Positions 13,384 through 61,576 of a DNA stretch of 64,000 bases are shown one piece after another; position 1 is the first letter of the stretch, and each line of letters begins with the position of its first letter. Origin of the DNA: Verrucomicrobiaceae bacterium. GTDB lineage: Bacteria > Verrucomicrobiota > Verrucomicrobiia > Verrucomicrobiales > Verrucomicrobiaceae. The stretch is from positions 124,001 through 188,000 of the forward strand of contig JAIBCL010000008.1 in NCBI GenBank assembly GCA_019694165.1, given 5' to 3'. The notes under the pieces are model-generated. The model was not told where the DNA came from. It ran no database searches and saw only the letters and a list, made by a program, of their open reading frames with translations. The position numbers and the translations under genes are program-made.

Positions 13384-13468
13384 GTTTTCGATCTCCTGTG
13401 TTGAGGTTTGAATGTTGAAATATGACTCCCGTTCCGCCAGACCGCGGACCGTGGAAAAAAATGGGGCG

Positions 13469-14136: not shown

Positions 14137-14659
14137 CGATGAAGCACCTCCCAAGCCGGGCCGCATTAAACCGTACTTCGCGCTCTTGGCGAACGGAAAA
14201 GGAGGCCCGCGCGAAAGCGGCCGCAGCGTGCACACGAAGCCCGGAAAGAAAAACGAGCTTGCCATGGGATTCACGGAGGCCCGCAGATTGTTTCCTGGGT
14301 GCGATCTGTGGGAATGGTGTCAGGGGAATGAGAAGAGCGGTGAATGGGGGCGCCGCGCTGCCAATGCGCAGCAGGGCGAATGAAATCCAGCAGCTCAGAA
14401 GACTGGCGCGATGGACTGGCAAAACGAGCAGGCCGGGACCAAATCCCACATGCAAGCCGATCATCCCGAAATGGAGCAGCGCACTACTTTGAAGTCTGTC
14501 AATAGTCGCAGCCTGACCCCCGTTCCCTGACCCCCGTTCCCCAAGCCGCTCACTCTGCGTCCCGAGCAGCGCACGGCACACGTTAGGCGTTGCCTCAAAG
14601 TTTGACGTGGCTTTAATCGACCCGGCTTCGCCATTTCACTCTCAACCTTTTCCCGAAAC
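14137..14659. other. Gene-free stretch with a 14-bp tandem duplication
   Basis: No reading frame here has convincing coding character. The one structure seen is two adjacent copies of CCTGACCCCCGTTC at 14512-14525 and 14526-14539. The stretch separates the tRNA from the amidohydrolase lipoprotein gene and must contain that gene's promoter, which I could not identify. Confidence 0.5.
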
Positions 14660-27797: not shown

Positions 27798-28137
27798 TGA
27801 GTGATTTCAGTTGTACAGGATCGGCCCGGCAGCCACAAGGCCGATGGTGAGAATTCACGGCGGAAGGAGTGTTCAATTTTGCCCGACACGGGAAGCCCGT
27901 TACGCAGCGGCACGCCGGTCTGATCGCGCCGGATCACGTTCCATCCGCGGCAGCAAAACTAATGGGTTCGCGCCCAAGATTAAGCTTTTCGCCCAAGTCA
28001 TGCATGTTAGAGTCAGCGCCCTTTTACGGTCCCGTGCAGGCCGCATTTCATCCTCAAAATCAACGCCCTGGCCGCCGAGCGACCAATGGCGGCAGCTTGC
28101 CCGGAAGTACCCGCCACCGCCTCGCGGCAGCACTGTC
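27798..28137. other. Divergent intergenic region between the giant protease and the polysaccharide locus
   Basis: These 340 bp separate the start of the leftward protease gene from the start of the rightward carbamoyltransferase. The frame of the carbamoyltransferase stays open upstream to 27811, but that part shows no family similarity. I could not pick out a convincing promoter, although promoters in both directions must lie here. It marks the left border of the polysaccharide locus. Confidence 0.5.
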
Positions 28138-29880
28138 ATGATCGTCCTCGGCATCAACGCGTATCACGGCGACTCCTCGGCCGCCATCATCCGCGACGGG
28201 AAACTCGTCGCCGCCATCGAGGAGGAGCGCTTCCTGCGCATCAAGCATTGGGCCGGGGTGCCGGTGGAGTCGATCCGCTTCTGCCTGAAGGAGGCGGGCA
28301 TCCGCTTCGGCGAGCTGGAGCACATCGCGATCAATCTCAATCCGCGCGTCAACCACCTGCGCCGTCTGCTTTTCATCCTTCGTCGCCGGCCCGATTTCAA
28401 ACTCATCTTCGAACGGCTGCGGAAGCTCAACAAGACCGCGTCGATCCGTGAAGCCATCGCCGCCGGTTTCCCGGGCGAGACGATGAAGGCGGAGGTGCAT
28501 CACATCGAGCATCACCTCTCGCATCTGGCTTCGTCCTATTTGTGCAGCCCGTTCAAGGACGCGGTGAATCTCTCGGTCGATGGCTTTGGCGACTTCGCCA
28601 GCGCGGCTTGGGGGCCGGGCATCGACGGGCGGATGCAGATCGACGGTCGCGTCTATTTCCCGCACTCGCTGGGCATGTTCTATTCGGCGCTCACGCAGTT
28701 CATCGGATTTCCGCACTACGGAGACGAGTACAAGGTCATGGGCCTCGCACCCTACGGCGAGCCGCGCTTCATGGAGCAGATGCGCAAGATCGTGCAGGTG
28801 CAGGGAGACGGCAGCTTCAAGCTGGGCCTCGACTACTTCCTCCATCATCGCGAGAAGGTGCCCTACACATGGGAGAATGGCTCGCCGGAAGTGGGCACCC
28901 TGTTTGCACCCGCGCTCGAAGACCTGCTCGGCCCCGCGCGAAAGAAGGACGCGCCGCTCGAGCAGAAGCACAAGGACATCGCACGCTCCGTGCAGGCGAT
29001 GTATGAGGAGGCCTTCTTCGCACTGCTGAACCAGCTCCACAAAACCTACGGCGGAGAAAACATCACGCTCTCCGGCGGCTGCGCGATGAACTCCGTCGCG
29101 AACGGGAAGGTGCAGCGCATGTCGCCCTTCAAGAACGTGTACATCCAGAGCGCGGCGGGTGATGCCGGCGGCGCGATCGGCGCGGCGCTCGTGGCAGCGC
29201 AGCAGCTCGGCGAAAAAGCGGAGCGCTTCCACATGAGCCATGCGTACTACGGCCCGCAGTTCAGCGATGCCGAATTCAAGGCCCTGCTCGACTCGCAAGC
29301 CGCCGCGATCAAAGAAGCGGGCTGCTCCGTCATTGAATTCCACGACACGGACAACCTCTGCAAGGCCACCGCGCAGGCGATCAGCGAAGGCAAAGTCATC
29401 GGCTGGTTCCAGGGCCGTCTCGAGTGGGGACCGCGCGCGCTGGGAAACCGCTCCATCCTCGGCGATCCGCGCCGCGCGGACATGAAGGACATCCTCAATC
29501 AGAAGATCAAACGCCGCGAATCCTTCCGCCCCTTTGCACCCTCGATCCTGCGCGAGGAGGTGCCTGCATGGTTCGAGACCGAGGCCGACGTGCCTTTCAT
29601 GATGCAAGTCTTCCAAGTGCGCGAGGAAAAGCGCGCGCTGATTCCCGCCACCACGCACGCCGACGGCTCCGGCCGCTTGCAGACCGTGCACCGCGACACG
29701 AACCCGCTCTATTACCAGCTCATCTCCGCCTTCCGTGATCTCACCAGCGTGCCGATGGTGCTGAACACCAGCTTCAACGAAAACGAGCCCGTCGTCTGCC
29801 GCCCGCAGGAAGCGCTGGATTGCTTCCTGCGCACCAAGATGGACGTGCTCGTGCTTGGAAAGCGGATGGTGCGGCGCTGA
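28138..29880 (+). CDS. NodU/CmcH-type carbamoyltransferase
   Basis: The 580-residue protein has the full two-part family layout. The N-terminal half starts MIVLGINAYHGDSSAAII and carries EEERF and the His-rich HHIEHHLSHLASSY. The C-terminal YrdC-like half has the hallmark WGPRALGNRSIL, then FRPFAPSIL and MVLNTSFNENEPVV. The family transfers a carbamoyl group from carbamoyl phosphate, through carbamoyl-AMP, to a sugar hydroxyl. It is the first gene of the polysaccharide locus, followed after 24 bp by the UDP-GlcNAc epimerase gene. The likely job is O-carbamoylation of a sugar in the polymer. The start at 28138 is where family similarity begins. Confidence 0.92.
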   Translation: MIVLGINAYHGDSSAAIIRDGKLVAAIEEERFLRIKHWAGVPVESIRFCLKEAGIRFGELEHIAINLNPRVNHLRRLLFILRRRPDFKLIFERLRKLNKTASIREAIAAGFPGETMKAEVHHIEHHLSHLASSYLCSPFKDAVNLSVDGFGDFASAAWGPGIDGRMQIDGRVYFPHSLGMFYSALTQFIGFPHYGDEYKVMGLAPYGEPRFMEQMRKIVQVQGDGSFKLGLDYFLHHREKVPYTWENGSPEVGTLFAPALEDLLGPARKKDAPLEQKHKDIARSVQAMYEEAFFALLNQLHKTYGGENITLSGGCAMNSVANGKVQRMSPFKNVYIQSAAGDAGGAIGAALVAAQQLGEKAERFHMSHAYYGPQFSDAEFKALLDSQAAAIKEAGCSVIEFHDTDNLCKATAQAISEGKVIGWFQGRLEWGPRALGNRSILGDPRRADMKDILNQKIKRRESFRPFAPSILREEVPAWFETEADVPFMMQVFQVREEKRALIPATTHADGSGRLQTVHRDTNPLYYQLISAFRDLTSVPMVLNTSFNENEPVVCRPQEALDCFLRTKMDVLVLGKRMVRR

Positions 29881-39208: not shown

Positions 39209-40158
39209 GCCAGCAACCGTCCATCTCGTGCATCATTCCAACCTTCAATCGCCGACATGTTCTCGTCGGGACCATCGAGATGCTCCTCGACCAGTCCTCA
39301 GCCGCGAAAGAGATCGTCGTGGTGGATCAATCCACCGATATTCCGCCCGAAGTTTCTTCCCGTCTGCAGTCGTGGCACGAGCAGGGACGCATCAAATGGG
39401 TGCGGCAGCCGGAACCGAATGCCTCGATGGCGCGGAACCGCGGAGCGCTGGAGTCCACGGGAGACGTCATAGTGTTCCTTGACGATGACATCCGCGTCTC
39501 TCGCGACTTTGTGGCCTCGTACCAGCGCGCCTTTGCCGATCCGGAAGTGCGGGCCGTGGCCGGTCAGGTGCTGGAGGGCGGCTGCGAGACGGTGGGCACG
39601 CGCGATCCGCGCGCGGATGATCCTGACTACGGCTGGATGTTTTGCAAAAGGAACTTCGACAAGCCCTTCACAGGCGCCTTTCTGATGGCCGGGAACATGG
39701 GAGTGCGGCGCACGGACTTCATGGCCGTGGGCGGCATGGACGAGCACTACATGAAGGGCGCTTTCCGCGAGGAGGCGGACTTTGCCATGCGCTGGCGCAA
39801 GAGCGGGAAGATGATCCACTTCAGGCCCGATGTCTCGCTCATCCATCTCGCCGGGCCCGGCATCCAGGATGGCGGCGCGCGGCACTGGACCTACCGCACA
39901 CCTTGGACGGCGATGCACCACTACTTCGGCTCCTGGTACTTTCTGCTCAATCACGCCACATGGCGCTCACTGCCGTATTTGCTGGCGGTGGACATGCGCT
40001 CCGCGGGCCTGAACAAACGAAACCTGCGCAAGCCGTGGATGATACCGCTGCATCTCAGCCGCTGGCTCTGGGCATTGCCTGGAGCCTTGCGCGCCAGGAT
40101 CGAAGGGCCGCGCCTCATCGGAACGGCGCATGCGGCAAAGGGGAAAAATGGCGGATGA
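39205..40158 (+). CDS. Glycosyltransferase family 2
   Basis: The 317-residue GT-A enzyme starts PSISCIIPTFNRRHVLVGTI. The nucleotide-sugar and metal site VIVFLDDDIRVSRDF is near residue 95, and the acceptor-side acidic motif is REEADFAMRW. The C-terminal part has the RTPWTAMHHYFGSWYFLLNH stretch common in GT2 enzymes of O-antigen loci. It probably adds one sugar to the lipid-linked repeat unit. It is joined by 4-bp overlaps to the hexapeptide acyltransferase before it and the double glycosyltransferase after it. Confidence 0.88.
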   Translation: MSQQPSISCIIPTFNRRHVLVGTIEMLLDQSSAAKEIVVVDQSTDIPPEVSSRLQSWHEQGRIKWVRQPEPNASMARNRGALESTGDVIVFLDDDIRVSRDFVASYQRAFADPEVRAVAGQVLEGGCETVGTRDPRADDPDYGWMFCKRNFDKPFTGAFLMAGNMGVRRTDFMAVGGMDEHYMKGAFREEADFAMRWRKSGKMIHFRPDVSLIHLAGPGIQDGGARHWTYRTPWTAMHHYFGSWYFLLNHATWRSLPYLLAVDMRSAGLNKRNLRKPWMIPLHLSRWLWALPGALRARIEGPRLIGTAHAAKGKNGG

Positions 40159-42575
40159 AAATGAAGGCTGCCTATTTCCTCTCCCACCCGATCCAATACC
40201 AAGCGCCGCTGCTGCGGCATTTGGCGGCGGAGGGGGTGAACATCACCACGGTGTATGGCGACATCTCGACGGCGGGCACGTATTTCGATCCCGACTACCA
40301 GCAGGAAGTCTCATGGGAGCAACCGTTGCTTGAAGGCTATGAGTTCGAGGTGCTGCGCGCGCCGCTGATCCGGGCGTCGCCTTGGGGCTGGGCGCGGGTG
40401 GCGCGGGAGTGGATGAAACGACACCGGCCTGACGTGGTGTGGGTGCATGGCTGGGGCACGGTGTTTGCCGTCGGCGCGCTGCTCGCCGCCCATGCGTGCG
40501 GCGTGCCGGTGATGCTGCGCGGGGAGACGCATCTGAGGTGCCTCAAAGGCTCGTGGCTCTGGCATCAGCTCCATCGCGCGGTGCTCGCGCGCGTCTTCAC
40601 GCAGGTGGATCAGTTCCTCGCCATCGGCAGCGCGAACCGCGAGTTCTACCGTGCCTATGGCGTCGAAGAGGCACGCATCACACCGGTGCCTTATGTGACT
40701 GACAACGCGCACTTTCAGGCGGCCTGCGCGCGGGCGCGAACGAGCCGTGATGCGTTCCGCACACGGCTCGGGGTCGCGCCGGGCAAGCTCGTGCTGTTGT
40801 TCGTGGGACGGCTCAGCCGCGAGAAAGACATCCCCACGCTCCTCGAGGCCCTGCGGATCGCCGGCAAGGACCTCAGCCCCGCCGTGCGGCCGTGCCTGCT
40901 GATCGGCGGCGAGGGGCCGCTCTCCGCGCCATTGCGCCGGGACGTGGCGGCGATGGCCGAGATCGACGCACGCTTCCTCGGCTTCGTGAAGCAGTCGCAG
41001 CTTCCGGCGCTTTATGATCTTTGTGATGCGCTCGTGCTGCCGTCGCGCACGGAGCCGTGGGGCATGGTGGTAAACGAGGCGATGAATGCCGGCCGGCCCA
41101 TGATCCTCAGCGACCGAGTGGGCGCGGGCGCGGACCTTTTGCAGCACGGCGAGAGCGGCTTCGTGTTTCCAAGCGGCAATGCCGAAGCCCTCGCGGCCTG
41201 CATCCGCCGGCTGATCGACGATCCGGCCTTCCGGCTCAAGGCGGGCGGGCGCAGCCTGGAGATCATCAACCGGTGGAACACGGGCCTCGCCGTCGCGGGC
41301 GTGAAGCGTGCGCTCGAAAATGTCACCCGAGCGGCCGGTGGGGACGCGTCAACCTGGAGCGCGGCGGCAAGGACGGCGCGCGGCGGCATCGAGCTGGCCT
41401 ACATCGGCGTGCACGAGGTTTTTCAGCTCGCGATCGCCGCGCATGAGATGGGCGAGCTGCGCGGCTTTCAATGCTCGGTGATCGATCTGCCGGGCAAGCT
41501 CGGGCGCGCCGCAGGCCACATGATGCGGCTGCCTTCGGCGCGGCCGCTCGGCACGGAAGCCCTGCCGCCGGACCGAGTGACGGAGCGGCCCGCTTCGCTG
41601 CTGGCCCTGCGGGCCTGGCACTGGCTGCGCGGCCGACGGAAGCTGGATCCTCTCCGCTGCCACCAACTGTTCGAGCACCTCGCGGCGCGCCGCCTCGCGG
41701 GATCGGCAGCGTCCATCGCCGTCGGCGCGGAAACCTGCGCGCTGGGCTGGTTCGAAGCCGCAAAACGCCGCGGCATGAAGTGCGTGCTGGACGCCCACGG
41801 CATTCCCGCGCCGTTCCTCGACGCGGCAAAGCGCCGCGCGGCGGCGGACTTCGGCCTGGCGACGCCGGCGCAGTCCGACAGCGAGGAAATGACCTGGCAC
41901 AAGAAGCAGGAGCGCCAGCTCGCCGACGTGATCCTGGTGTGCTCCCAGTTGCAGAAGGACGTGTACGGCAGGCTCGGCGAAGACACATCCCGCATGAGGC
42001 CCGTGCCGCTGTGGATCGACACTGAATTCTGGCGCGAGACACGCGCGCGGGGGAAAGCGACGCTGCCGCTGCGCGTGATGTTTGCCGGCACGGCCACTCT
42101 CGCCAAAGGGCTGCCGTATCTTTTCCAGGCGCTGGAGAAGACGGGCGACGCGGTGCATCTGACGATCGTGGGTCCGCTTGCACCGGACATCCGGCATCTG
42201 GCCGCGCGCATCAAGCCGGTGCTCACTGTGCTCGGCTACAAGTCCCGCGAGGAGCTGCGCGGCTTTTATTCCACGCAGCATGTGCTCGTGCTCCCATCAT
42301 TGGGGGACTCCTTTGGCTTCGTGGTGATGGAGGCGATGGCCTGCGGCCTGCCGGTCATTCTAACCGATCACTGCGGCGCACCGGTGCCTGACGAATCGTG
42401 GCGCGTACCCGCGCACGACTCGCAGGCGCTGGCCGAGCGCCTCCTCTGGTATGCCGCCGACATGACGCGCGTGGAGCACGACGGCGGCATCGCGCGCGAA
42501 TTTGCCTCGCGCTTCCCACCCTCCGAATACCGCCGGAAGGCCCGGGCGATCTTTGCCGAACTTCTGGCCGCGTGA
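40155..42575 (+). CDS. Fused double glycosyltransferase (GT4-GT4)
   Basis: At 806 residues this is twice the size of a normal GT4. The first module (about 1-390) starts KAAYFLSHPIQYQAPLLRHL, binds donor through LLFVGRLSREKDIPTLLEAL and carries the acidic site PSRTEPWGMVVNEAMNAG. The second (about 408-806) starts GGIELAYIGVHEVFQLAIAA and has MFAGTATLAKGLPYLFQAL and LPSLGDSFGFVVMEAMACG. Both modules keep the E-x7-E donor-binding region, so both may be active. It could add two consecutive sugars. The start at 40155 overlaps the previous stop by 4 bp. The next gene overlaps its stop through GTGA at 42572. Confidence 0.85.
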   Translation: MKMKAAYFLSHPIQYQAPLLRHLAAEGVNITTVYGDISTAGTYFDPDYQQEVSWEQPLLEGYEFEVLRAPLIRASPWGWARVAREWMKRHRPDVVWVHGWGTVFAVGALLAAHACGVPVMLRGETHLRCLKGSWLWHQLHRAVLARVFTQVDQFLAIGSANREFYRAYGVEEARITPVPYVTDNAHFQAACARARTSRDAFRTRLGVAPGKLVLLFVGRLSREKDIPTLLEALRIAGKDLSPAVRPCLLIGGEGPLSAPLRRDVAAMAEIDARFLGFVKQSQLPALYDLCDALVLPSRTEPWGMVVNEAMNAGRPMILSDRVGAGADLLQHGESGFVFPSGNAEALAACIRRLIDDPAFRLKAGGRSLEIINRWNTGLAVAGVKRALENVTRAAGGDASTWSAAARTARGGIELAYIGVHEVFQLAIAAHEMGELRGFQCSVIDLPGKLGRAAGHMMRLPSARPLGTEALPPDRVTERPASLLALRAWHWLRGRRKLDPLRCHQLFEHLAARRLAGSAASIAVGAETCALGWFEAAKRRGMKCVLDAHGIPAPFLDAAKRRAAADFGLATPAQSDSEEMTWHKKQERQLADVILVCSQLQKDVYGRLGEDTSRMRPVPLWIDTEFWRETRARGKATLPLRVMFAGTATLAKGLPYLFQALEKTGDAVHLTIVGPLAPDIRHLAARIKPVLTVLGYKSREELRGFYSTQHVLVLPSLGDSFGFVVMEAMACGLPVILTDHCGAPVPDESWRVPAHDSQALAERLLWYAADMTRVEHDGGIAREFASRFPPSEYRRKARAIFAELLAA

Positions 42576-47654: not shown

Positions 47655-49112
47655 ATGTACATGAAGATGATGTCGGTCGAGCAAATGCTCTTCTTCGGGG
47701 GCATTGGCACGATCATCACGGTGATGCTCGCGTCACTGAACTGGCGGCGCGCCGTGTTCGCCGCCTTCTTTATGGCGCTGTTCGAGGGTGCCATCCGCAA
47801 ATGGCTGCTCCCTTCGCTTTCCGAGCTTGTGTACTTCGGCAAGGACATCGTGCTGCTCGGTGCTTACTTGAAGTTCTATTTTGACCCCGAACCGGACATC
47901 AAGGCCTACAGCCTGCGGGTGCCGGGTGCGTTGATTGCTGCGGTATGCATGGTTCTCATCATCGGGGGCGCGATGAATCCGAACATCGGTTCGTTCATAC
48001 TCGCGCTATACGGCATCAAGATTTATCTGTGGTATGTCCCGCTCGCCTTCATGATGCCCTACTTGTTCCGCGACCAGAAGGATCTCACGAACAAGATTTT
48101 CTGGTACTCGACGCTCGCCATCCCAATCTGTCTCCTCGGTGCCGCCCAGTTCGTGGCGGGTCCCGATTCGCCCCTGAACTGCTACGCGAAGACGATCTAC
48201 ACGGAGATGAATCAGATCGCCACCTTCGGCGCAGGCTCCACGCGTGCCCGCATCTCCGGCACATTTTCCTACCTCACGGGCTTCACCGTGTTCGTGGTGC
48301 TCTTCTTCGTCATCTCCCTGGCCCTGCTCACCGTGCTGACTGGCAAGCGCAGGCTGGTCGTGCTTTTTGGAAATCTGCCGCTCCTCGCCGCGAACTCGTT
48401 GATGTCGGGATCGCGCGGTGCCGTTTACAGCATCATCATCTGCTCGGTGTTCTACGTTCTGGCATCGAGCATCTACCGTGTGACCGACGAAAAAAAGAGC
48501 GGAGGCGGAGCCGCGATTTACATCATTCTCGGTTTCGGTGTGGTGGCGGCCGTCACGAGCCTCTTTTTCAAGGACGCGGTCAATGAATTCCAAATGCGCC
48601 GGCGCACCACCAACGACACCACGTATGACCGGCTGATCACGCCATTGTGGTCCGTCGGCCAGGCGGCGCGCGAAGTCGGTTTCGGCGGCTACGGTATCGG
48701 CCTCTCGCATCCGGCGAGCGAAGCGATGCGCACAAACCTCAAGCTGCCGGCGCCCAAGCAGCGGTGCCCGGTGTACGACTCTGAAATGGGCCAAGTGCTT
48801 GCGGAACTCGGCTGGCCCGGTTTCCTGATGTGGTACTACCTCCGCTTCAGCGCGATCTTCGCCACTTGGAATGCCTTCAAACGCGCCCAGCCTTCCCTGC
48901 AACGCGCGCTCTACCTCGCGTGCTTCTGTTACCAGTCGATCTTCTTCACCGCCGGCGTCGTGCTGAACCACACGGCGAACTTTTTCGTCTTTGCCACCTG
49001 GGGTCTTTGCCTGCTGCCAAATCTCTATCCGGCAGTGGGGCGCCGGCGCCCCGGCTACGGTGGTCCGGTTTCGCTGCCGGCTCAACCCGCGCCTCGATAC
49101 GGATCGAGATGA
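47655..49112 (+). CDS. Wzy-like O-antigen/polysaccharide polymerase
   Basis: The 485-residue protein has about ten or more hydrophobic helices and opens with AAFFMALFEGAIRKWLLP, a motif seen in a subgroup of Wzy/O-antigen ligase-like proteins. LMSGSRGAVYSIIICSVFYVL and a large loop before the final helices also fit. Wzy joins lipid-linked repeat units on the periplasmic face. A 134-bp gap without a recognised gene precedes it, the longest inside this part of the locus, so an internal promoter there is possible but not identified. Confidence 0.78.
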   Translation: MYMKMMSVEQMLFFGGIGTIITVMLASLNWRRAVFAAFFMALFEGAIRKWLLPSLSELVYFGKDIVLLGAYLKFYFDPEPDIKAYSLRVPGALIAAVCMVLIIGGAMNPNIGSFILALYGIKIYLWYVPLAFMMPYLFRDQKDLTNKIFWYSTLAIPICLLGAAQFVAGPDSPLNCYAKTIYTEMNQIATFGAGSTRARISGTFSYLTGFTVFVVLFFVISLALLTVLTGKRRLVVLFGNLPLLAANSLMSGSRGAVYSIIICSVFYVLASSIYRVTDEKKSGGGAAIYIILGFGVVAAVTSLFFKDAVNEFQMRRRTTNDTTYDRLITPLWSVGQAAREVGFGGYGIGLSHPASEAMRTNLKLPAPKQRCPVYDSEMGQVLAELGWPGFLMWYYLRFSAIFATWNAFKRAQPSLQRALYLACFCYQSIFFTAGVVLNHTANFFVFATWGLCLLPNLYPAVGRRRPGYGGPVSLPAQPAPRYGSR

Positions 49113-50980: not shown

Positions 50981-51029
50981 AGCCGGGACGAAGATGGCAG
51001 ATTCACTCAAGAACACGAAGGCACTTCCC

Positions 51030-52001
51030 ATGAAACGCGCGCTCATCACCGGGATCACAGGGCAGGACGGGTCCTATCTGGCGGAGTTGCTGCTCGGACA
51101 AGGCTACGAAGTGCACGGCCTGATGAGACAAACTGGACTTGAGCAAATCAGAGGTCTCCAGCCATATGGCGCTCAAGCGGACCTCTATGAGCGTTGCAAG
51201 CTGCACGCCGTGAGCCTCGACAACTTTCCGGGACTCTACCGCCTGGTCTCAAACATCCAGTTCGACGAGTGCTACCATCTCGCCGCAGCGTCCTTCGCCG
51301 GTGAGAATCTGGCCGATGGCTACCAGACCATCCAGACAAACATCGCGGGTACGCACTATCTGCTGGCCGCGCTGGGCGAGTTCCAGAAAACCTGCCGTTT
51401 CTACTTTGCAGGCACGAGCGAGATGTTCGGCAGGCCGGGCGCGGCACCGCAAAGGGAAGACACCCCCTTCATGCCGCGCAGTGCGTACGGCATCAGCAAG
51501 CTGGCGGCCTTCCACATCGTGCGCAATTACCGCGAGACGCAGGGCATGTTCTGCTCCTCCGGAATTCTCTACAATCACGAGAGCCCGCGCCGCAGGCCGG
51601 AGTTTGTGACGCGCAAGATCACCCTCGCCGTGGCCCGCATCGCCGCCGGCAGGCAGGACAAGCTCGAACTTGGCAACCTCACCGCCGTGCGCGACTGGGG
51701 CTACGCACCCGACTATGTGAGGGCGATGCAGGCCATGCTGCTGCACGCAGAGCCGGGAGATTTCGTCGTGGCCACGGGCCGGCTTCACAGCGTGGCAGAC
51801 TTCTGCCGCATCGCCTTCGAGCATGTGGGCCTCGACTGGCAGAAGCATGTGACCAGCAGCCCCATGTTTTTCCGCGCCCAGGAACCGGTGCCGCTCCAGG
51901 GTGATCCGTCACGCATCCAGAATGAGATCGGCTGGAAGCCGGGGATGGATTTTCCGGACATGGTCCGCGAGATGGTGGATGCCGACATCGCCAGGATGTG
52001 A
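51030..52001 (+). CDS. GDP-mannose 4,6-dehydratase-like protein, divergent paralogue
   Basis: The 323-residue extended SDR starts [20 protein letters not shown], identical in style to GMD. It has the active-site GTSEMFG and YGISK motifs and the GMD-typical LYNHESPRR and FVTRKIT. It differs from the second copy at 60563 by lacking the [15 protein letters not shown] cofactor/tetramer segment, which is replaced by a shorter RQTGLEQIRGLQPYG. ATG 51030 is preferred, with GAAGG 8 nt upstream; ATG 50994 would add 12 residues. It probably makes a GDP-4-keto-6-deoxy sugar, but a relative with another substrate cannot be ruled out. Confidence 0.82.
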   Translation: MKRALITGITGQDGSYLAELLLGQGYEVHGLMRQTGLEQIRGLQPYGAQADLYERCKLHAVSLDNFPGLYRLVSNIQFDECYHLAAASFAGENLADGYQTIQTNIAGTHYLLAALGEFQKTCRFYFAGTSEMFGRPGAAPQREDTPFMPRSAYGISKLAAFHIVRNYRETQGMFCSSGILYNHESPRRRPEFVTRKITLAVARIAAGRQDKLELGNLTAVRDWGYAPDYVRAMQAMLLHAEPGDFVVATGRLHSVADFCRIAFEHVGLDWQKHVTSSPMFFRAQEPVPLQGDPSRIQNEIGWKPGMDFPDMVREMVDADIARM

Positions 52002-52007
52002 ACGAAG

Positions 52008-54326
52008 ATGAGGGGAAAAAAGGAAAGCATTCACGTCTGGGCGCCTGAGATTCACGAGGGATCGGGAGGCATCCAGGCTTTCTCGCGCGTCTATGTGAAG
52101 TCACTGCAGGAGGCGTACCCGGACATAGGCGTCCACGTCTTCGTGAAGAACGACTCCGTGCCCGGGCACGATCCGTTGCGCCTCCTGGGAGTGACCATTC
52201 ACTCTGCGGCCCGCTACCCTGGCTGGCTGCGCACGCTGGCGCTGGTCGTCATGGGCATCGGCCTCGGCTTGTGGATGAGGCCGCGCTGCGCAATCACCAC
52301 GCATCTGCACTTCCTGCCCGCGCTGCGCATGCTGCACTGGCTGGCAGGCATCCCGGTGATAAGCGTTCTGCACGGCGTGGAGGCGTGGTACGCACGCGAC
52401 GGGCTGCGCGTGCGGGCCATGCGCGCGGCGAACCACCTCATGGCCGTGAGCCGCCACACGCGGCAGATGGTGATCAATGCCTTTGGCGTCGAGCCGCAGC
52501 GCGTCAGCGTGGTTCCGAACACCTTCGACACCGGGCGTTTCACCCTCGGTCCGAAGCCCGGGCGCCTGCTGAAAAAGTTCGGCCTGCGCCCGGATCAGCC
52601 GGTGCTGCTCACAGTCAGCCGCCTGGCACTCTCCGAAGGTCACAAGGGGCACCGGCAGGTGCTGGTGGCCCTCGATGCGATACGGCGGAAGTTTCCAGAC
52701 GTGCGCTATCTCGTGGTGGGCACCGGGGATGATCTGCCGCGCCTGCGCGATGCCGTGGTGGCGCGCGGGCTGGAGGACTGCGTGATCTTTGCCGGCTACG
52801 TCCCGTCCGCCGAATTGCCTGATTACTACCGGCTGTGCGACGCCTTCGTGATGCCCAGCAGCAAGGAGGGCTTTGGCATCGTCTTCCTGGAGGCGATGGC
52901 CTCGGGCAAGCCGGTGGTGGCCGGCTGCCTCGACGGATCGGTGGATGCCCTCGATGGCGGCCGCCTCGGCGTGCTGGTGGATCCGAACGACCCGGCGAAA
53001 ATCGCAGACTCCGTCTGCCGTGTGCTCGCGCACCAGCCCGAGGGTGCGCTCTGGAATGACCCCGCAGCCCTGCGCGCGGCCGTGGTGGCGCAGTTCGGTC
53101 ATCAGCGCGTGAGCCGCCTGATGGCGGACGACATCGCCGGCATCATCGGCCGCGAACCGCGGTCCGACAGCAGCCTGCCCGCCGCGCGCGGTGGCGAGGA
53201 CGTCTTCCCCGTGGCGCCTCGCATCGTGGTGATCACGAAATTGATCACGCCGTACCACGTCGAGTTCTTCAACGCGCTCTCCGCCCAGGGCGGGCTGCTG
53301 CTCGAGGTGATCTACCTGACCAGCCGCGATCCCGACCACCAATGGCAAATGCCGTCGGTGGCGCATGATCATCTGGTGCTCTCCGACATGCCCGAGATGG
53401 AGGCCAACGCGCTGCGCAGCATCAGCAGCGCGGACCTCGCCGTGTTCAACTGCAATCTCGACTGGTTCGTGTTCAAAGCCCTGCGCGAGCGCTCGCGGGC
53501 ACGGCGGCCGTGGGTATTCTGGGGCGAGTGGCCGGGCTTCATGCGGCCGGGCGTGAGCGGCGCGGTGGCGCGGTGGTTCCTGCGCGTGCCTCTCCACCGC
53601 CAGACCGCCCCGATCTGGGCGGTCGGCAAGCTCGCCATCGAAGGCTTCCGCAAGGAGTTCGGCAACAGCCGCACCTATTGCAACATCCCTTACTTTTGCG
53701 ATCTGCAGCGCTTGCTTGACGCACCGCTTCCGCCGGTGGACAGGCGCACGTTCCTGTATGCAGGCACGCTCACGCAGCGCCGCGGCGTGGACGTGCTGGC
53801 CTCCGCTTTTGCGCGTCTGGCCTCCCTGCACCCGGACGCGCGCCTCGTGGTGATGGGCACCGGTCCGATGGAGGGCACGATGCGCGGGCTGCTCAAAAAC
53901 TGCGCCGACAAGGTCACCTGGCTCGGCTTTCTCCCCTGGCAGCAGACACAGATGGGCTACGCGCAGGGATCCGTGTTTTGCTTCCCTGCGCGGGATGAGG
54001 CGTGGGGCCTGCCGGTCACGGAAGCACTCGCCTCCGGCCTGCCCGTGATCAGCACGCCGCGCACCGGGGCGGCCGTCGAATTCGTCGCTGACGGTGAGAC
54101 TGGATGGCTGGTCCCGGCGGATGACGTCGCCGCGCTCGTGGCTGCCATGGAGAAGGCACTGCGCCTGCCTGATGCGGACTTCGCGCAGTTGCAAAAGAAG
54201 GCGCGCGAAGTGGCGGCAGGCGGCACGCTGGCAGAAGGCGTCAAACGCATCGCCGGCGCGGCCACTGATTTCATCTCCCGCTGGCGGGCGCGTTCTCCCG
54301 GCCGCCGTTCCGTCTTGCACCCCTGA
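52008..54326 (+). CDS. Fused double glycosyltransferase (GT4-GT4)
   Basis: The 772-residue protein has two complete GT-B modules. The first (about 1-385) starts SIHVWAPEIHEGSGGIQAFS and has VSRLALSEGHKGHRQVLVAL and MPSSKEGFGIVFLEAMASG. The second (about 402-772) starts RIVVITKLITPYHVEFFNAL, then RPWVFWGEWPGFM, FLYAGTLTQRRGVDVLASA and FPARDEAWGLPVTEALASG. The second module is clearly related to the first module of the fusion at 56151. It starts 6 bp after the GMD-like gene and is followed 9 bp later by the asparagine-synthase-like gene, so it is part of one operon. Confidence 0.85.
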   Translation: MRGKKESIHVWAPEIHEGSGGIQAFSRVYVKSLQEAYPDIGVHVFVKNDSVPGHDPLRLLGVTIHSAARYPGWLRTLALVVMGIGLGLWMRPRCAITTHLHFLPALRMLHWLAGIPVISVLHGVEAWYARDGLRVRAMRAANHLMAVSRHTRQMVINAFGVEPQRVSVVPNTFDTGRFTLGPKPGRLLKKFGLRPDQPVLLTVSRLALSEGHKGHRQVLVALDAIRRKFPDVRYLVVGTGDDLPRLRDAVVARGLEDCVIFAGYVPSAELPDYYRLCDAFVMPSSKEGFGIVFLEAMASGKPVVAGCLDGSVDALDGGRLGVLVDPNDPAKIADSVCRVLAHQPEGALWNDPAALRAAVVAQFGHQRVSRLMADDIAGIIGREPRSDSSLPAARGGEDVFPVAPRIVVITKLITPYHVEFFNALSAQGGLLLEVIYLTSRDPDHQWQMPSVAHDHLVLSDMPEMEANALRSISSADLAVFNCNLDWFVFKALRERSRARRPWVFWGEWPGFMRPGVSGAVARWFLRVPLHRQTAPIWAVGKLAIEGFRKEFGNSRTYCNIPYFCDLQRLLDAPLPPVDRRTFLYAGTLTQRRGVDVLASAFARLASLHPDARLVVMGTGPMEGTMRGLLKNCADKVTWLGFLPWQQTQMGYAQGSVFCFPARDEAWGLPVTEALASGLPVISTPRTGAAVEFVADGETGWLVPADDVAALVAAMEKALRLPDADFAQLQKKAREVAAGGTLAEGVKRIAGAATDFISRWRARSPGRRSVLHP

Positions 54327-54335
54327 CGCTTTTTC

Positions 54336-56135
54336 ATGTGCGGCATCGCAGGCATCCTGCACGCGGGCGGGTCTGACAAGGACTCGCTGCGCCGCCCGCT
54401 GGACGATCTCGTCCTCGCGCTGCGGCATCGCGGGCCGGACGACAACGGCATCTGGATCAATGCCGGGGGCACGGCCGGTCTGGCGCATGTGCGCCTGGCC
54501 ATCCTGGACCTCACCCCCGCGGGCCACCAGCCGATGCACACGGCTGACGGCGAGCTGCACATCATCTTCAACGGCGAGATTTACAATTTCCGCGAACTCC
54601 GCGCCGGGCTCGAAAAAGAAGGCGTCGTATTCAAAACCAATTCGGATACCGAAGTCCTCCTCCAGATGTACCGGGCCAGGGGCGTGTCCATGTTGTCCGA
54701 ATTGCGCGGCATGTTCGCCTTCGCGATCTGGGATGAAAAGCGCCGGAACTGCCTGCTGGCCCGTGATCCCATGGGTATCAAGCCGCTCTACTACGCGCTC
54801 AACGGCCAGCGCATGGTCTTCGCATCCGAATTGCGTGCCCTGCAAACGGCGGGCCTCGTCGGGCGCGATCTCGATGCCGGCGCACTCATCCGCTATTTCC
54901 AAATGGGATCGGTGCCGGAGCCGCAGACGCTGCTGGCCGACGTCCACAGCCTCGAAGCCGGACACTATCTGATGTGGGAGAATGGCCGGGTGGCCAAGCG
55001 CTGCTACTGGCGGGTCGCCTTCCCGGAAAAACAGACGCAGCCAATGGATCCTGTCCGTGCCACGGACGAGGTGCGGAGCGCGCTGCTCGACAGCCTGCGC
55101 GCACACTTCGTCAGCGACGTGCCGGTGGGAGTCTTCTTGAGCGGCGGGATTGATTCCACGGCTCTTGTCGCACTGGCGCGCGTGGAGGGACACGAGAACC
55201 TCGCCACCTTCTCCATCGGCGTGAACGATCCGGAGATGGATGAGGCCGCCATCGCGGAGAAGACCGCCGGATTTTTCGGCACGCAGCACCGGACCATGCA
55301 TCTGGATGCCGCCCTCGGGCGCCAGATTTTCGCCAGGTTCCTGGAGAGCATGGACCAGCCCAGCATCGACGGCCTGAACACCCACACCGTGTCATCGTTC
55401 GCCAGCGAGCACGGCATGAAGGTCGTCCTCTCCGGTCTCGGCGGCGACGAATTGTTCGCCGGCTACCGCAGCTTCGACTCCGTGCCGCGGCTGCACGCGT
55501 TCAACCGCGCGGTTCACTGCCTGCCCGGTGCCGCGACCCTGGCCGGCTGGGCGATGGAGAGATGTCCGCTCTCGGCCCGCGTAAGGCGCGTCGGATCACT
55601 GCTCCGCTCCGAGGTCACGATGAAGAGCGCCTTCCGCTGCTTCCGCAGCATCTTCTCCCTGCGCAGCGCACAACTTCTGGCCGCGCGCTATCTCGACTGC
55701 CATCCGCGGAATCTGCCCGAGCTTTATTATTCCCAGGTCCAGGCGAAGGAGGCGCGCAATGCCGTCAGCGAGTGCGAGATCACGCTCTACATGCGCAATC
55801 AACTGCTCAAGGACAGCGACGTGATGAGCATGGCCCGCGGGCTGGAGCTGCGGGTGCCGTTCGTGGACCGCGTGCTCTTCGAGCGCATCGCCGCGGTGCC
55901 CGCCGTGCTCCGTCTCCGGCAGGGCAAGCAGATGCTGCTGGATGCCGTGCCGGAGATTCCCGAATGGGTGCGCAACCAGCGCAAGCGCGGATTCATGTTT
56001 CCCTTTGAGAAATGGCTTGAGGAAGACTGGAAGCAGCCTTTCGCCGATGCCGCCAGCAAAGTACCCTATGGCCGGCCGTCGTGGTATCAGAGCTGGGCCG
56101 TGTTCGTGCTCGAACATTGGCTGAGACGGCAGTAG
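54336..56135 (+). CDS. Asparagine synthase (glutamine-hydrolysing) family amidotransferase
   Basis: The 599-residue protein has the full AsnB layout. Catalytic Cys2 (MCGIAGIL) opens the class II glutaminase domain, with NGEIYNF and SDTEVLLQ. The synthetase domain has the PP-loop FLSGGIDSTALVAL near residue 267 and LSGLGGDELFAGY. In polysaccharide loci such AsnB-type proteins are thought to amidate uronic acids. Its place between two glycosyltransferase fusions, in a locus that should make ManNAcA, supports that role over housekeeping asparagine synthesis. That remains an inference. Confidence 0.9.
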   Translation: MCGIAGILHAGGSDKDSLRRPLDDLVLALRHRGPDDNGIWINAGGTAGLAHVRLAILDLTPAGHQPMHTADGELHIIFNGEIYNFRELRAGLEKEGVVFKTNSDTEVLLQMYRARGVSMLSELRGMFAFAIWDEKRRNCLLARDPMGIKPLYYALNGQRMVFASELRALQTAGLVGRDLDAGALIRYFQMGSVPEPQTLLADVHSLEAGHYLMWENGRVAKRCYWRVAFPEKQTQPMDPVRATDEVRSALLDSLRAHFVSDVPVGVFLSGGIDSTALVALARVEGHENLATFSIGVNDPEMDEAAIAEKTAGFFGTQHRTMHLDAALGRQIFARFLESMDQPSIDGLNTHTVSSFASEHGMKVVLSGLGGDELFAGYRSFDSVPRLHAFNRAVHCLPGAATLAGWAMERCPLSARVRRVGSLLRSEVTMKSAFRCFRSIFSLRSAQLLAARYLDCHPRNLPELYYSQVQAKEARNAVSECEITLYMRNQLLKDSDVMSMARGLELRVPFVDRVLFERIAAVPAVLRLRQGKQMLLDAVPEIPEWVRNQRKRGFMFPFEKWLEEDWKQPFADAASKVPYGRPSWYQSWAVFVLEHWLRRQ

Positions 56136-56150
56136 TCGCCACATAAAACC

Positions 56151-58523
56151 ATGCCCTTCACGGGACGATCCAACAACAGCGAAGATTTCGCGGGCGGCGA
56201 AGCTCCCGCAAATGCATCAGGCCAGGTTCTGGACATCTGCGTGATCACGTATCTCACGTCGCCTTATCAGGTGGAGTTTTTCAACGAAATCGCCACCCAC
56301 AAGGGCGTCAGGCTGCGCGTCATCTATCTCCACGAGGAGGTGCGCCTCTATCCCTGGGCACCGGTAGAATGCAGGCATGAGTTCATGATCCTGGAGGGCA
56401 GCCGGCGGAGAATCGCCCAGGCGTTCAAGTGGGCGCGCGAAGCGTCGCTGACGGTGTGCAACTACTACACCCATTGGTTTGCCCTCGCCGCGCTCCACGC
56501 CCGTCATCTTGGCGGACGACCCTGGGTGTTTTGGGGCGAGAGTCCGGGATTCCTCCAGCTTGGCTGGCTTGGAAAGCTGGGACGCAAGATGCTCCTCTAC
56601 CCCATCGCCAGAAGTGACGCTCCAGTGTGGGGCATCGGGCGCACTGGCGTGTCCCGCTACAAGCAGGACTGGGGCGACTCGAAGGACTACGTCAATCTCC
56701 CCTACTTCTCCGATCTCCAGCGCTTCCGCACCCAGACCAGAACCGCGCCCGCCGACGTGCGCTGCATTTTGTACTCCGGCGTGCTCAGGCCGCGCAAAGG
56801 AGTGCTCGAGCTGGCCGAGGCATTCCGCGCCGCCGCATTGCAAAACGGCACGCTGCGTCTGGTGATCCTGGGTGGCGGACCGCTCGAAGACCAGATGAGG
56901 ACGATTCTCGATCCCGTACGGCATCTCGTGCGGTGGGAGGGTTTCCGCCAGTGGCACGAGCTGCCGGCACTGTACGCGCAGGCACATGTGCTGTGCCTGC
57001 CCACCAAATACGATGGCTGGGCCATGGTGGTGCCCGAAGCCCTCGCGGCCGGACTGCCCGTGCTCACCACCCGCGAGGCCGGCGCGGCGGTGGAACTCGT
57101 CGAAGATGGCGTGAACGGCTGGCTCATGCCGGCGGTGAGGACGCAGTGCATCACCGAGTCGCTGCTCCGCATCGCCGCGCTCTCGAACGATGAACTCGAA
57201 AAACTCGGTGTCACCGCGCGGGAAAGCGTGCGGGATCACAGCCTCGCGGAGGGCGGCACGCGTTTCGTCGCCGCCGCCTGGGGTGCCATCGAGGCGTTTC
57301 ATTGTCGCCTGGCCTCCGGTCGTGCCGGGCTCCCTCCATCTGCGCCGAAGATTTTCATCACCGGCCCCTATCCGCCGGATCGCTTGAACAGCATGATCCG
57401 GTATGTGGACCTCCTGCGGTCGGTTACGAAAGATTTTCCCTGGCCCGTCGAACAGCTGGACCCGCCCGTAATCTTCGGCGCATTGCGCCGGCTTCCCGCG
57501 CGGCTGCGCAGGCTGCTCGAGTATCTGGACAAGTACGTGTTTTTCCCGCTGAAGATCCGCTGGAGGGCAGGCAGGAACGCCGGACGCGAGGGTTGTTTCG
57601 TTCACATCACCGACCAGGGATTCGGCCCCCTCGCTCCATGGATCGCGGACTTTCCAGTCGTCGTCACCTGCCACGACCTGATCGCCATCCGGGCCGCGCT
57701 CGGGCTTGGACCCGCGGCACGGCGCGCACCATGGCGTGGCTGGTTCCAGCGCCTCATCCGGCGGACCTTGTGCCTGCCTGCCACTGTGATTTGTGATTCG
57801 GAAAAAACACGCGGTGACTGCGAGCAATTGCTGAGCACAGGAAGCGTCCGCCATGTGCTGCATCTGCCGCTCGATCCCGAGTTCACGGGCGACACCGGCG
57901 GCATCGAGGTTCCAGCGCTGCCCGAGCGTTTCTTCCTGCATGTTGGCAATTCGCTTTGGTACAAGAACCGGCCGGGCGTGCTGCAAATCTTTGCCGCCCT
58001 TTGTGAGAAGCCGGCCATGCCGCCAAAGCTCGTCTTCATGGGAGAGCCCCCCACGGCGGACGAACTCCGCATCGCAAGCACGCGCAAGATCGAAGACCGT
58101 GTCGTCTGGATTCCCCGTCCGCCCACGGCTTGGATCATGGCCGCCTACGACAGGGCGCAGGCTCTGATTTTCCCTTCACTGGAAGAAGGCTTCGGCTGGC
58201 CGGTGCTGGAGGCCATGTCGCGCGGATGCCCGGTGTTTTGTTCTGATCGCGCACCGCTTTCTGAAATCGGCGGTGATGCCGTGGTGTACATCGATCCGGA
58301 AAGTCCTGCCGCGGCAGCCGATGTCATCGCGGGCTGCATGGTGCAGGGCGGCCCGTGGCGGAGCGCTCAAGCCGCGAAGGGGAAGAGCCGAGCAGCCGGC
58401 TTTTCCGTCCCAAGATTCAGCGCCGGCATGATGGGGGTGTATCAGTCGGTCATCGACCGCTTCACGCTGGAAGGGAGCCGGGAGGCTGAGCACGAGCCGA
58501 TGCGGGACGCCTCGCCGGGTTGA
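56151..58523 (+). CDS. Fused double glycosyltransferase (GT4-GT4)
   Basis: The 790-residue protein has two GT-B modules. The first (about 20-385) has SPYQVEFFNEIATHKGV, RPWVFWGESPGFLQ, ILYSGVLRPRKGVLELAEA and LPTKYDGWAMVVPEALAAG. It is homologous to the second module of the gene at 52008. The second module (about 395-790) starts KIFITGPYPPDRLNSMIRYV, then VVTCHDLIAIR, RFFLHVGNSLWYKNRPGVL and FPSLEEGFGWPVLEAMSRG. The terminal motif is the normal donor-binding acidic pair. An unannotated N-terminal tail of about 20 residues is polar. It is followed 9 bp later by another GT4 gene. Confidence 0.85.
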   Translation: MPFTGRSNNSEDFAGGEAPANASGQVLDICVITYLTSPYQVEFFNEIATHKGVRLRVIYLHEEVRLYPWAPVECRHEFMILEGSRRRIAQAFKWAREASLTVCNYYTHWFALAALHARHLGGRPWVFWGESPGFLQLGWLGKLGRKMLLYPIARSDAPVWGIGRTGVSRYKQDWGDSKDYVNLPYFSDLQRFRTQTRTAPADVRCILYSGVLRPRKGVLELAEAFRAAALQNGTLRLVILGGGPLEDQMRTILDPVRHLVRWEGFRQWHELPALYAQAHVLCLPTKYDGWAMVVPEALAAGLPVLTTREAGAAVELVEDGVNGWLMPAVRTQCITESLLRIAALSNDELEKLGVTARESVRDHSLAEGGTRFVAAAWGAIEAFHCRLASGRAGLPPSAPKIFITGPYPPDRLNSMIRYVDLLRSVTKDFPWPVEQLDPPVIFGALRRLPARLRRLLEYLDKYVFFPLKIRWRAGRNAGREGCFVHITDQGFGPLAPWIADFPVVVTCHDLIAIRAALGLGPAARRAPWRGWFQRLIRRTLCLPATVICDSEKTRGDCEQLLSTGSVRHVLHLPLDPEFTGDTGGIEVPALPERFFLHVGNSLWYKNRPGVLQIFAALCEKPAMPPKLVFMGEPPTADELRIASTRKIEDRVVWIPRPPTAWIMAAYDRAQALIFPSLEEGFGWPVLEAMSRGCPVFCSDRAPLSEIGGDAVVYIDPESPAAAADVIAGCMVQGGPWRSAQAAKGKSRAAGFSVPRFSAGMMGVYQSVIDRFTLEGSREAEHEPMRDASPG

Positions 58524-58532: not shown

Positions 58533-59708
58533 ATGCGAGTGCTGCACATCATTCCGAGCATGGCACCGTCCTACGGCGGACCGGCGACTGCGCTGCCCGG
58601 CATCGCCAAAGGGCTGCTTGACGCTGGAGTATCAGTCGATGTGGCCACCATCATCAATCCTGGCGAGCAAGCGGACCCCGCGCAGGCGGTATCGGACGAA
58701 GCGCATGGATTCCGCCGTTTCGTCTTCGCACGCACGACGCGGCCTTACCGCATCTCGCTGCCTCTCGGACGATGGCTGGATGAACGAGTGCGGGAGTACG
58801 CACTGGTGCATGTGCATGCCGTGTTCACCTACTCGAGCCGCGCGGGCTGCCGCAGCGCGTTCAGCAACGCCGTGCCGTACATCGTCAGGCCGCTGGGCAT
58901 CCTGAACCGTTGGGGCATGGAGCAGCGCCGCCCGCTGGCGAAGAAGTTCTTCTTCAAGTTCATCGAAAAACCGCTTCTCGATGCCGCTGCGGGAATGCAC
59001 TACACGAGCGAGACGGAGGCCGAAGAGGCCGCGCGACTGAGCATCCGCGCGCCGGCGCGCATTGTCCCGCTCGGCATCGATCTCGGCCCGTTCGAGCGGC
59101 TTCCGGGCAGAGAGATTTTTGTCTCGCGCTTCTTTCCGGATTCGCACGCTGGCGGACCGGTGATCCTTTTCCTCTCGCGGCTGGATCCGAAGAAGGGCAT
59201 CGATTTGCTGCTCGATGCCTTTCAATCAATGCTCTCCTCGCATCCGCGCGCGCGGCTGGTCATCGCAGGTGATGGAGATGCGGCGTTTGTCCGGTCACTC
59301 AAGGAGCGGGCCGCGCAACTCGGCCTCGGCGGCTCGGTGGTCTGGCCTGGATTTCTCGCGGGTGAAATGAAACTCGCCGCGCTGGCGGCCGCGGATGTTT
59401 TCTGCCTGCCCTCGCATTCTGAGAATTTCGGCATGGCTTTGCTGGAGGCGATGGCCGCCGGAAAAGCGTGCGTCTCCAGCGACCAGGTGGCGCTCGGTGT
59501 CGAAGCGGCGCGCTCGAGCGCGGTGAAGCTCGTGACGCGTGATGCGGCGTCGATTGCGAAGGCGCTGGAGGACGTGATGGCATCAGCGGACCGGCGATCG
59601 CAACTCGGCGCGACGGCGCGCACCTACGCCCGCGAGCACCACGGCATCGCCGCTGTCGGCACGAGGCTTGCCGCGTGGTATGAGGAGATCGTCGGCGCGA
59701 AAAGATAA
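58533..59708 (+). CDS. Glycosyltransferase family 4
   Basis: The 391-residue enzyme starts MRVLHIIPSMAPSYGGPATAL, typical for GT4. Motifs are LVHVHAVFTYSSRAGCRSA, ILFLSRLDPKKGIDLLLDA and CLPSHSENFGMALLEAMAAG, with the conserved pair of glutamates. This pattern is like the WcaI/mannosyltransferase subset of O-antigen loci. Donor is likely a GDP- or UDP-sugar made by the locus, but cannot be assigned. It is 9 bp from the upstream and 6 bp from the downstream gene. Confidence 0.9.
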   Translation: MRVLHIIPSMAPSYGGPATALPGIAKGLLDAGVSVDVATIINPGEQADPAQAVSDEAHGFRRFVFARTTRPYRISLPLGRWLDERVREYALVHVHAVFTYSSRAGCRSAFSNAVPYIVRPLGILNRWGMEQRRPLAKKFFFKFIEKPLLDAAAGMHYTSETEAEEAARLSIRAPARIVPLGIDLGPFERLPGREIFVSRFFPDSHAGGPVILFLSRLDPKKGIDLLLDAFQSMLSSHPRARLVIAGDGDAAFVRSLKERAAQLGLGGSVVWPGFLAGEMKLAALAAADVFCLPSHSENFGMALLEAMAAGKACVSSDQVALGVEAARSSAVKLVTRDAASIAKALEDVMASADRRSQLGATARTYAREHHGIAAVGTRLAAWYEEIVGAKR

Positions 59709-60562: not shown

Positions 60563-61576
60563 ATGAAAAAAGCACTCGTAACCGGCATCACGGGCCAGGA
60601 TGGCTCCTATCTCGCGGAACTGCTTCTCGAGAAAGGCTATGAGGTCCACGGCATCGTGCGCCGGGCCTCGAACTTCAACACCCAGCGCATCGACCACCTC
60701 TACGTCGATCCACACAAGAAAACGAACCTGCACCTGCACTTTGGCGATCTGACAGATTCGGTGGCGATGGTGAAGCTCATCCACGAGATGCAACCCGACG
60801 AGGTGTACAATCTCGGCGCGCAGAGCCATGTGCGCGTGTCCTTCGACGTGCCCGAGTCCACCGGCGACATCGTGGGCCTCGGCACGCTGCGCATCCTGGA
60901 AGCGATCCGCGAGGCCGGCATGGTGAACAAGGTGCGCTTCTACCAGGCATCCTCCTCGGAAATGTACGGCAAGGTGCAGGAGGTGCCGCAGACGGAGAAG
61001 ACGCCCTTCTGGCCGCGCTCACCGTATGCGTGCGCAAAAGTGTACGGCTACTGGCTCACGGTGAACTACCGCGAGTCCTACAACCTGCACGCGAGCAACG
61101 GCATCCTCTTCAACCACGAGTCTCCACGCCGCGGCGAGACGTTTGTGACACGCAAGATCACGCGCGCGGCCACGCGCATCAAACTCGGGCTGCAGGACAA
61201 GCTCTACCTCGGCAACATGGATGCCCGGAGGGACTGGGGTTACGCGAAGGAATACGTCGAGATGATGTGGCTCATGCTGCAGCAGGACAGGCCGGACGAC
61301 TACGTCGTCGCCACAAACGAAACGCACTCCGTGCGCGAGTTCGTGGAGGAGACATTTGCCCTGCTGGATCTCGACTGGAAAAAACACGTCGAGCACGACG
61401 CCCGCTACGAGCGTCCGGCGGAGGTGGAGCTGCTCATCGGCGATCCGTCGAAAGCCAAGCGCCAGCTCAACTGGGAGCCGAAGGTGCGGTTCAAAGACCT
61501 CGTGAAGCTCATGGTCGATGCCGACTTGAAGCTGGCCGAGGCGGAGCTGCACCAGCGCGGCCACAGGCCGGCGTAG
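60563..61576 (+). CDS. gmd: GDP-mannose 4,6-dehydratase
   Basis: The 337-residue protein closely follows [23 protein letters not shown], the [16 protein letters not shown] segment, [15 protein letters not shown], the YACAKVYG catalytic motif and [19 protein letters not shown]. It converts GDP-D-mannose to GDP-4-keto-6-deoxymannose, the precursor of GDP-fucose, GDP-rhamnose and GDP-perosamine. No fucose synthase, RMD reductase or aminotransferase was seen in this window, so the end product is undefined. The canonical motifs contrast with the divergent copy at 51030. Confidence 0.94.

Follow-up and report, generated by a model that had tools for sequence, protein, structure and literature searches.

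A glycosyltransferase module at opposite ends of two double-GT4 proteins in a polysaccharide locus of a Verrucomicrobiaceae bacterium

The window, by which we mean the whole 64,000-nucleotide stretch of Verrucomicrobiaceae DNA analysed here (contig JAIBCL010000008.1 of assembly GCA_019694165.1, positions 124,001 to 188,000), contains a closely packed plus-strand run of surface-polysaccharide genes for sugar-nucleotide enzymes, GT2 and GT4 transferases and FkbM methyltransferases. Two open reading frames in this run encode double-glycosyltransferase proteins, which we call A (52008..54326, 772 aa) and B (56151..58523, 790 aa). The module common to both is designated M, its upstream partner in A is designated AN, and its downstream partner in B is designated BC (Table 1). 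As the first-pass annotation had it, A and B flank an AsnB-type gene, and the gaps on its two sides are 9 and 15 bases, respectively. The product of this gene scores above the cut-off of the asn_synth_AEB model TIGR01536 (424.5 against 267.1 bits) and falls below the cut-off of TIGR03108, the XrtA/PEP-CTERM exopolysaccharide amidotransferase model (385 against 816.9 bits). In the Pfam search of the window, the frame at 47655-49112 gave a weak Wzy_C match (25.8 bits, below the 31.7 cut-off). The locus holds two GDP-mannose dehydratase-type genes: one at 60563-61576, which passes the gmd cut-off (557 bits), and one directly upstream of A, which scores 313 bits, short of the 415 cut-off, and may therefore act on another sugar. 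A carbamoyltransferase gene with both Pfam halves (27811-29880) borders the sugar genes on their upstream side, so that the polymer may be carbamoylated. Adjoining the polysaccharide locus on the minus strand, a 3219-aa frame (18141-27797) with M36 fungalysin peptidase, BACON-like and lamin-tail domains encodes a giant, probably secreted protease.

Table 1. Features of the two double-GT4 genes and their immediate neighbours, in window coordinates.
Feature	Position	Strand	Evidence
GDP-mannose dehydratase-like gene, last backbone gene before the island, directly upstream of A	50994..52001	+	Pfam GDP_Man_Dehyd, 360 bits
AN module, N-terminal GT4 of A, residues 1-402 including linker 386-401	52008..53213	+	Pfam; stand-alone homologues in 12 relatives; model (residues 1-385)
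AN EX7E motif, catalytic-type, residues 287-295	52866..52892	+	Motif scan
M module, C-terminal copy, A residues 403-772	53214..54326	+	BLASTP; AN-M clade 98/97 (M tree)
A-copy M donor-side Rossmann lobe, residues 581-719, absent from half-M of relatives	53748..54164	+	Model secondary structure; half-M alignments
A-copy M EX7E motif, residues 664-672, E-A replacing D-G of the family	53997..54023	+	Motif scan
A-copy M terminal helices, residues 722-762, kept wholly or partly by half-M proteins	54171..54293	+	Model; tail alignments
AsnB-type glutamine amidotransferase/asparagine synthase-like gene	54336..56135	+	asn_synth_AEB; neighbourhoods
M module, N-terminal copy in B, homology from residue 26-29	56151..57350	+	BLASTP; clade with G036, G026, G053, 100/100
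B-copy M DX7E motif, residues 288-296	57012..57038	+	Motif scan
BC module, C-terminal GT4 of B	57351..58523	+	Stand-alone homologues in 6 relatives
BC EX7E motif, residues 679-687	58185..58211	+	Motif scan
GT4 gene after B	58533..59708	+	Gene comparison with relatives

The first-pass annotation had described the second module of A and the first module of B as clearly homologous, and both this homology and the swapped position were borne out by BLASTP, which aligned A 406-772 with B 29-396 at 141/368 identical residues (38%) with 1 gap (E 2e-76); the motifs it had quoted (PYxVEFFN, RPWVFWGE-PGF, IPYFCDLQR/LPYFSDLQR) lie within this alignment. When the A-copy of M was used to search its own genome, the 24 matches listed were headed by the query itself and then by the B-copy, at full length and 261.6 bits, and the next glycosyltransferase reached only 58.3 bits, in a match confined to the C-lobe common to GT4 enzymes. 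The two Ms of the window are thus closer to one another than generic GT4 similarity would make them. The description of their fusion partners as unrelated proved too strong, since all four modules are GT4 and AN can be aligned with BC (32% over 131 aa, E 8e-11); AN and BC belong to different subfamilies of one superfamily. Glycos_transf_1 (PF00534) matches two stretches in each protein, with 221.9 and 158.1 bits against a 26.4 cut-off, and all four modules have an [E/D]X7E pattern (E at A 287, A 664 and B 679; D at B 288), EX7E being the GT4-type motif. An AlphaFold2 model, made for A only, consists of two GT-B units with a low-confidence linker between them (pLDDT 83, pTM 0.60), and GT4 chains cover one unit of it at a TMt of ~0.8. 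At the DNA level the two M segments match in short stretches only, the best being 129 bp at 73% and the longest perfect match listed 14 bp, and there has thus been no recent duplication or gene conversion.

To survey the arrangement of these modules in relatives, each of the four was searched in 96 genomes, the window's own included, and a 23-row M alignment was searched against 68 family, 384 class and 387 phylum genomes, with further M searches in 98 relatives of the outlying genome G269. M peptide patterns searched against an 84,980-species collection returned 25 loci, many of them contigs of genomes already sampled; all 25 carry metagenome-assembly titles, and many of the sampled genomes are likewise metagenome assemblies. 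Full-length M (>480 bits) was found in 21 of the 68 family genomes, and in two full copies only in that of the window. M follows AN in 14 genomes and precedes BC in 5, both counts including the window's (the AN of G044 is cut by a contig end), and in one genome, G053, M is fused to a GT9 module (PF01075, 7e-17). The first-pass annotation had proposed looking for M as a stand-alone gene in related loci, and it occurs as such in G003, G013 and locus L082, while the tree includes another 8 loci whose single Ms are more distant. AN is a separate gene in 12 relatives and BC in 6, three of the latter distant (33-35%), while three relatives (G053, G011 and G031) have AN joined to half of M. The reverse order is found in G269, which belongs to another family of the class: here M, at residues 8-359 of the protein, is followed by an AN part at 364-728 that scores 225 bits against the window's AN, with AsnB and a GT4 gene next. 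This arrangement, checked with Pfam, was seen in one genome, with no further M-AN among the 98 relatives of G269 (E 1e-70) or the 387 phylum genomes (E 1e-90). We did not count as fusions the frame upstream in L088, which reads like an overlapping frame, or the 576-693 aa frames near distant Ms. Two damaged or partial loci were also seen: in L095 (G037; 11076-12564) an M-BC gene is apparently broken, with BC in two frames and the front of M on another contig (L097), and L096 (G045; 2602-5714, minus strand) shows another variant of the slot, in which an M-like end (45%) precedes, in this order, a methyltransferase-like frame, AsnB and the GT4 gene.

The genes around these modules keep a recurring order. 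In G003 and L082, where M is stand-alone, and in the 13 relatives with AN-M, AsnB and a GT4 gene come next; the stand-alone M of G013 has the GT4 gene next without AsnB. Behind stand-alone AN, AsnB was found in 12 of 12 loci (an FkbM-like gene intervenes in G034 and G048, and 2.5 kb in G077). A GT4 gene then follows AsnB in 11 of them, and in the twelfth, G043, the contig ends. The M-BC genes of G036, G026, G027 and G035, as well as the broken copy of G037, are followed by a GT4 gene without AsnB, and stand-alone BC has a GT4 gene as its direct neighbour in G008 and G018, and at a distance of one gene or 1-3 kb in the remaining four genomes. The GT4 gene after B in the window matches the genes after AsnB in AN-M loci at 43-55%, and those after M-BC in G036, G026 and G027 at about 30%. 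This gene order suggests that M was joined to the C-terminus of AN in loci where M came second, and to the N-terminus of BC in loci where M came first. Moreover, since one lineage has AN before M and another has M before AN in a fused protein, a functional link between the two activities is likely. In L115 (G035; 11765-14344), the GT4 genes that follow M in the two locus types share one open frame of 860 aa, which contains two Glycos_transf_1 stretches and is possibly another fusion.

An M tree of 32 rows was built, with the half-M rows left out together with G037 (M over two contigs, BC in two frames) and G045 (only the end of M on the contig). In this tree the A-copy of the window falls in the AN-M clade (98/97) and the B-copy falls with G036, G026 and G053 (100/100), and an arrangement of the two copies as sisters was rejected (p 1.2e-77). 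The M of the reversed G269 protein groups with the single Ms of G003, G013 and L082 (96/98), outside the AN-M clade. A single M-BC group was not rejected, either for M (p 0.43, the M of G053 included) or for BC (p 0.235), and the M-BC lineages of window/G036/G026 and of G027/G035 may therefore reflect one shared fusion or two. In the AN tree (30 rows), AN-M and AN-halfM proteins fall together to the same side of a branch (92/84, not starred).

A gene-by-gene comparison of the window locus across 27 loci gave different nearest relatives for different parts of it. G097 is the best relative for the GT2 gene (62%), Wzy (60%), the second FkbM gene (52%), the GMD-like gene (77%) and the GT4 gene after B (55%), and for the gene labelled GT45 it is about equal to G036 and G026 (48, 49 and 52% for G097, G036 and G026). 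A and AsnB instead resemble those of G022 and G041 (AN 71 and 61%, M 55 and 56%, AsnB 64 and 68%), compared with 52% for AN, 45% for M and 54% for AsnB in G097. For B the nearest relatives are G036, G026 and G053 (M 61-63%), with BC at 53-55% in G036 and G026. The window and G097 are joined in the GT2 and Wzy trees (SH-aLRT 98 and 97, quick method), and joining A of the window with G097 was rejected for both AN (p 0.014) and M (p 0.002). The simplest reading of these comparisons is an exchange of cassettes between lineages. In G053, M is 77% to the M of G036 and the next gene 82%, yet the partner between them is GT9 and not BC; by this comparison, exchange in G053 reaches inside a gene. Base composition gave no clear foreign mark, with GC of 0.64-0.67 in A, AsnB and B against 0.59-0.69 in the other genes measured.

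In the proteins with half an M, which are 619 (G053), 608 (G011) and 621 aa (G031) long, AN is followed by the N-lobe of M and then directly by the last helices of M, with roughly M residue 160-167 to 318-338 gone. Because MAFFT alignments misplace the tail, that of G053 was aligned alone. Aligned with the end of M from three AN-M proteins, the tails gave Z values of 11.5-17.6 for G041, 5.8-7.1 for A of the window and 8.1-10.1 for G022, and 0/300 shuffles scored as high; against G014, which is also AN-M, and against B of the window there was no standout match. Since the model of A places the C-lobe at residues 581-719, ahead of the terminal helices at 722-762, the part missing from half-M is the donor-binding lobe, EX7E motif included. 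When the half-M of G053 was modelled (216 residues; pLDDT 81, pTM 0.79), the N-lobe proved complete and residues 185-201 formed a terminal helix; the model aligns to GT-B chains from the N-lobe through the last residues (6eji, Z 13.5; 3c4q, Z 13.1). The same N-lobe and helix cut is found in 6ldq, sucrose-phosphate synthase residues 27-220 and 406-426 (Z 12.4); 6ldq is by its title a stand-alone laboratory construct, whereas half-M is the natural C-terminal tail of AN. GT-B enzymes split over two polypeptides also exist, as in Alg13/Alg14. A single origin of the half-M forms as one clade was rejected in the AN tree (p 5.9e-6), and the loss of the donor lobe with retention of the terminal helix happened at least twice. 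In G053 the half-M stretch has 25, 24 and 25 changes of its own at codon positions 1-3, a third-to-second ratio of 1.0 compared with 4.5 in G041 and 5.4 in G025; a kept structural role is unsupported by this even spread, and this half-M looks like a decaying remnant. Those of G011 and G031 are 25-32% identical to the Ms of AN-M proteins, each forming a deep single branch, and their frames are still open, which would argue for longer maintenance.

We think it probable that A and B are two-headed GT4 proteins with M as an optional module, products of separate and older fusions, in a locus assembled from cassettes. Since M is found as a gene of its own ahead of AsnB and a GT4 gene, and relatives carry AN and BC individually at the corresponding place, the swapped position would result from older, independent joining of M to an adjacent GT gene, M having fused to whichever gene adjoined it, upstream or downstream; exchange of whole cassettes between lineages would then have set two M-bearing proteins side by side. 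The two active sites of each protein may add consecutive sugars to a lipid-linked repeat unit, with the fusion keeping the sugar-adding pair together, and loss of the donor-binding lobe in relatives would switch the sugar of M off. The first-pass annotation had read the swap as module shuffling inside the locus, perhaps by recombination between the homologous halves. Shuffling as such holds for the family, in which M alone, AN-M, M-AN, M-BC, M-GT9 and AN-halfM are distributed across relatives, and the window is a mosaic; what fell away is the idea that the swap was made inside the window's locus. The halves are indeed homologous, 1.9 kb apart and in direct orientation, and M does swap partners in the family, and yet movement of M between the two proteins by recombination of its halves is very improbable: the copies belong to separate, old clades and their sister relation was rejected, near-identical DNA tracts are absent between them, and each fusion is present in other genomes without the other. 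A triple AN-M-BC fusion, a possible crossover product, was not found among the best 5 to 30 candidates per genome. Gene conversion or recombination between the Ms of the window was rejected on the M tree together with the lack of identical DNA tracts.

Alternatively, an M-GT4 cassette could have been duplicated in tandem long ago and its Ms later fused to AN and BC, so that the window keeps the full set and other genomes have lost half of it. This would account for the GT4 gene that comes after M whether M is stand-alone, part of AN-M or part of M-BC, with AsnB between in some loci, and for the locus of G053, which also combines an A-like gene with an M-first gene; the deep branches among M lineages lack the resolution in the M tree to oppose it. 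We nevertheless consider such a duplication unlikely, because, of the 21 family genomes with full M, just 2 have both kinds, the A of G053 having half an M; because the order is A-AsnB-B in the window and M-first gene, GT4, Gmd, A in G053; and because A-AsnB, B and the backbone are each nearest to different genomes.

Returning to separate fusions and cassette assembly as the favoured reading, the two Ms of the window differ in how far each has diverged. Among 24 close Ms the A-copy deviates most, at 14 of 80 sites otherwise conserved at >=90%, including S12T, Q15H, R106W, D262E and G263A, and these changes hit the DG of the DGWG motif as well as SPYQ; the B-copy deviates at 5 of 77 conserved sites. 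When the 14 AN-M proteins were compared, that of the window deviated at 24/123 conserved M sites against 5/115 AN sites (p 0.0003, or ~0.004 counting 14 tests), with p >=0.11 in the other 13, and its own second-position changes numbered 30 in M and 13 in AN. The A-copy of M may therefore have a changed specificity or be under relaxed constraint. A related possibility, compatible with the reading we favour and put forward tentatively, is that the A-copy no longer works and is being lost since B supplies M. This would fit the number of conserved sites changed, the excess of amino-acid change in M and not in AN, and the half-M forms of three relatives with their at least two origins; against it, the reading frame, both lobes and the EX7E pattern are intact, and altered specificity would give the same signs. 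More speculatively, M could be a portable extra-sugar module for the surface polysaccharides of Verrucomicrobiaceae, fused at either end, moved in cassettes and repeatedly switched off by removal of its donor lobe, with AN perhaps needing the acceptor lobe and helix, and with the A-copy of the window turned to a new donor or acceptor.

Multi-module glycosyltransferases are known, and earlier work on one of them, WbdA, is reportedly that of Greenfield in 2012. WbdA of E. coli O8/O9a and Klebsiella O3/O5 is presented in passages of PMC11231755 as a polymerizing mannosyltransferase with two or three GT modules per protein. Like A and B, it is described there as joining several GT modules in one polypeptide of an O-polysaccharide locus, with modules distributed differently in related systems. 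It would differ in being the polymerase of an ABC-transporter system, whereas the window locus has a putative Wzy-like gene, and it differs in that M, unlike the WbdA modules of those passages, changes ends and partners and has one form without a lobe. Two GT modules also stand side by side in WbbB of Klebsiella O12 and ORF6 of O7 (PMC11231755) and in WbbM of O2a (PMC12269835); ORF6 of O7 and WbbM come from other GT families, and the passages of these sources that treat the three proteins describe no module at either end of different partners. The best single PDB match of the whole A model is the Cps3D capsule multienzyme (8qoy, E 1.2e-19), which is also multi-module; with a TM-score of only 0.41/0.32 and a TagF-like polymerase in this enzyme, the likeness is at the level of the GT-B lobe. 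For the single modules, PimB', BshA, GlgM and MshA (GT4) are among the best profile and fold matches, and these are, unlike A and B, single-module enzymes of other pathways. A literature search that covered few subscription journals returned no paper describing fusions of this kind in Verrucomicrobia, nor any describing a module that can sit at one or the other terminus. The chemistry and fold of M are ordinary, and what is unusual is its presence at both ends, in both orders, with an exchanged partner and with an excised lobe.

The stepwise gain and loss of multi-module glycosyltransferases is rarely seen. Here, one slot in comparable genomes holds separate genes, fusions at either end, both orders, a replaced partner and the loss of a lobe. 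These proteins are natural test objects for the effect of fusion on the order or speed of sugar addition and for the role left to a lone acceptor lobe, and they may guide the design of multi-module glycosyltransferases. The window locus itself contains a third double-GT4 protein, at 39642-42575, with two Glycos_transf_1 stretches; in G011, G049 and G012 the two halves correspond to distinct genes, and in G046, G096, G002 and G018 to a single gene, and its real start is probably downstream of the listed TTG.
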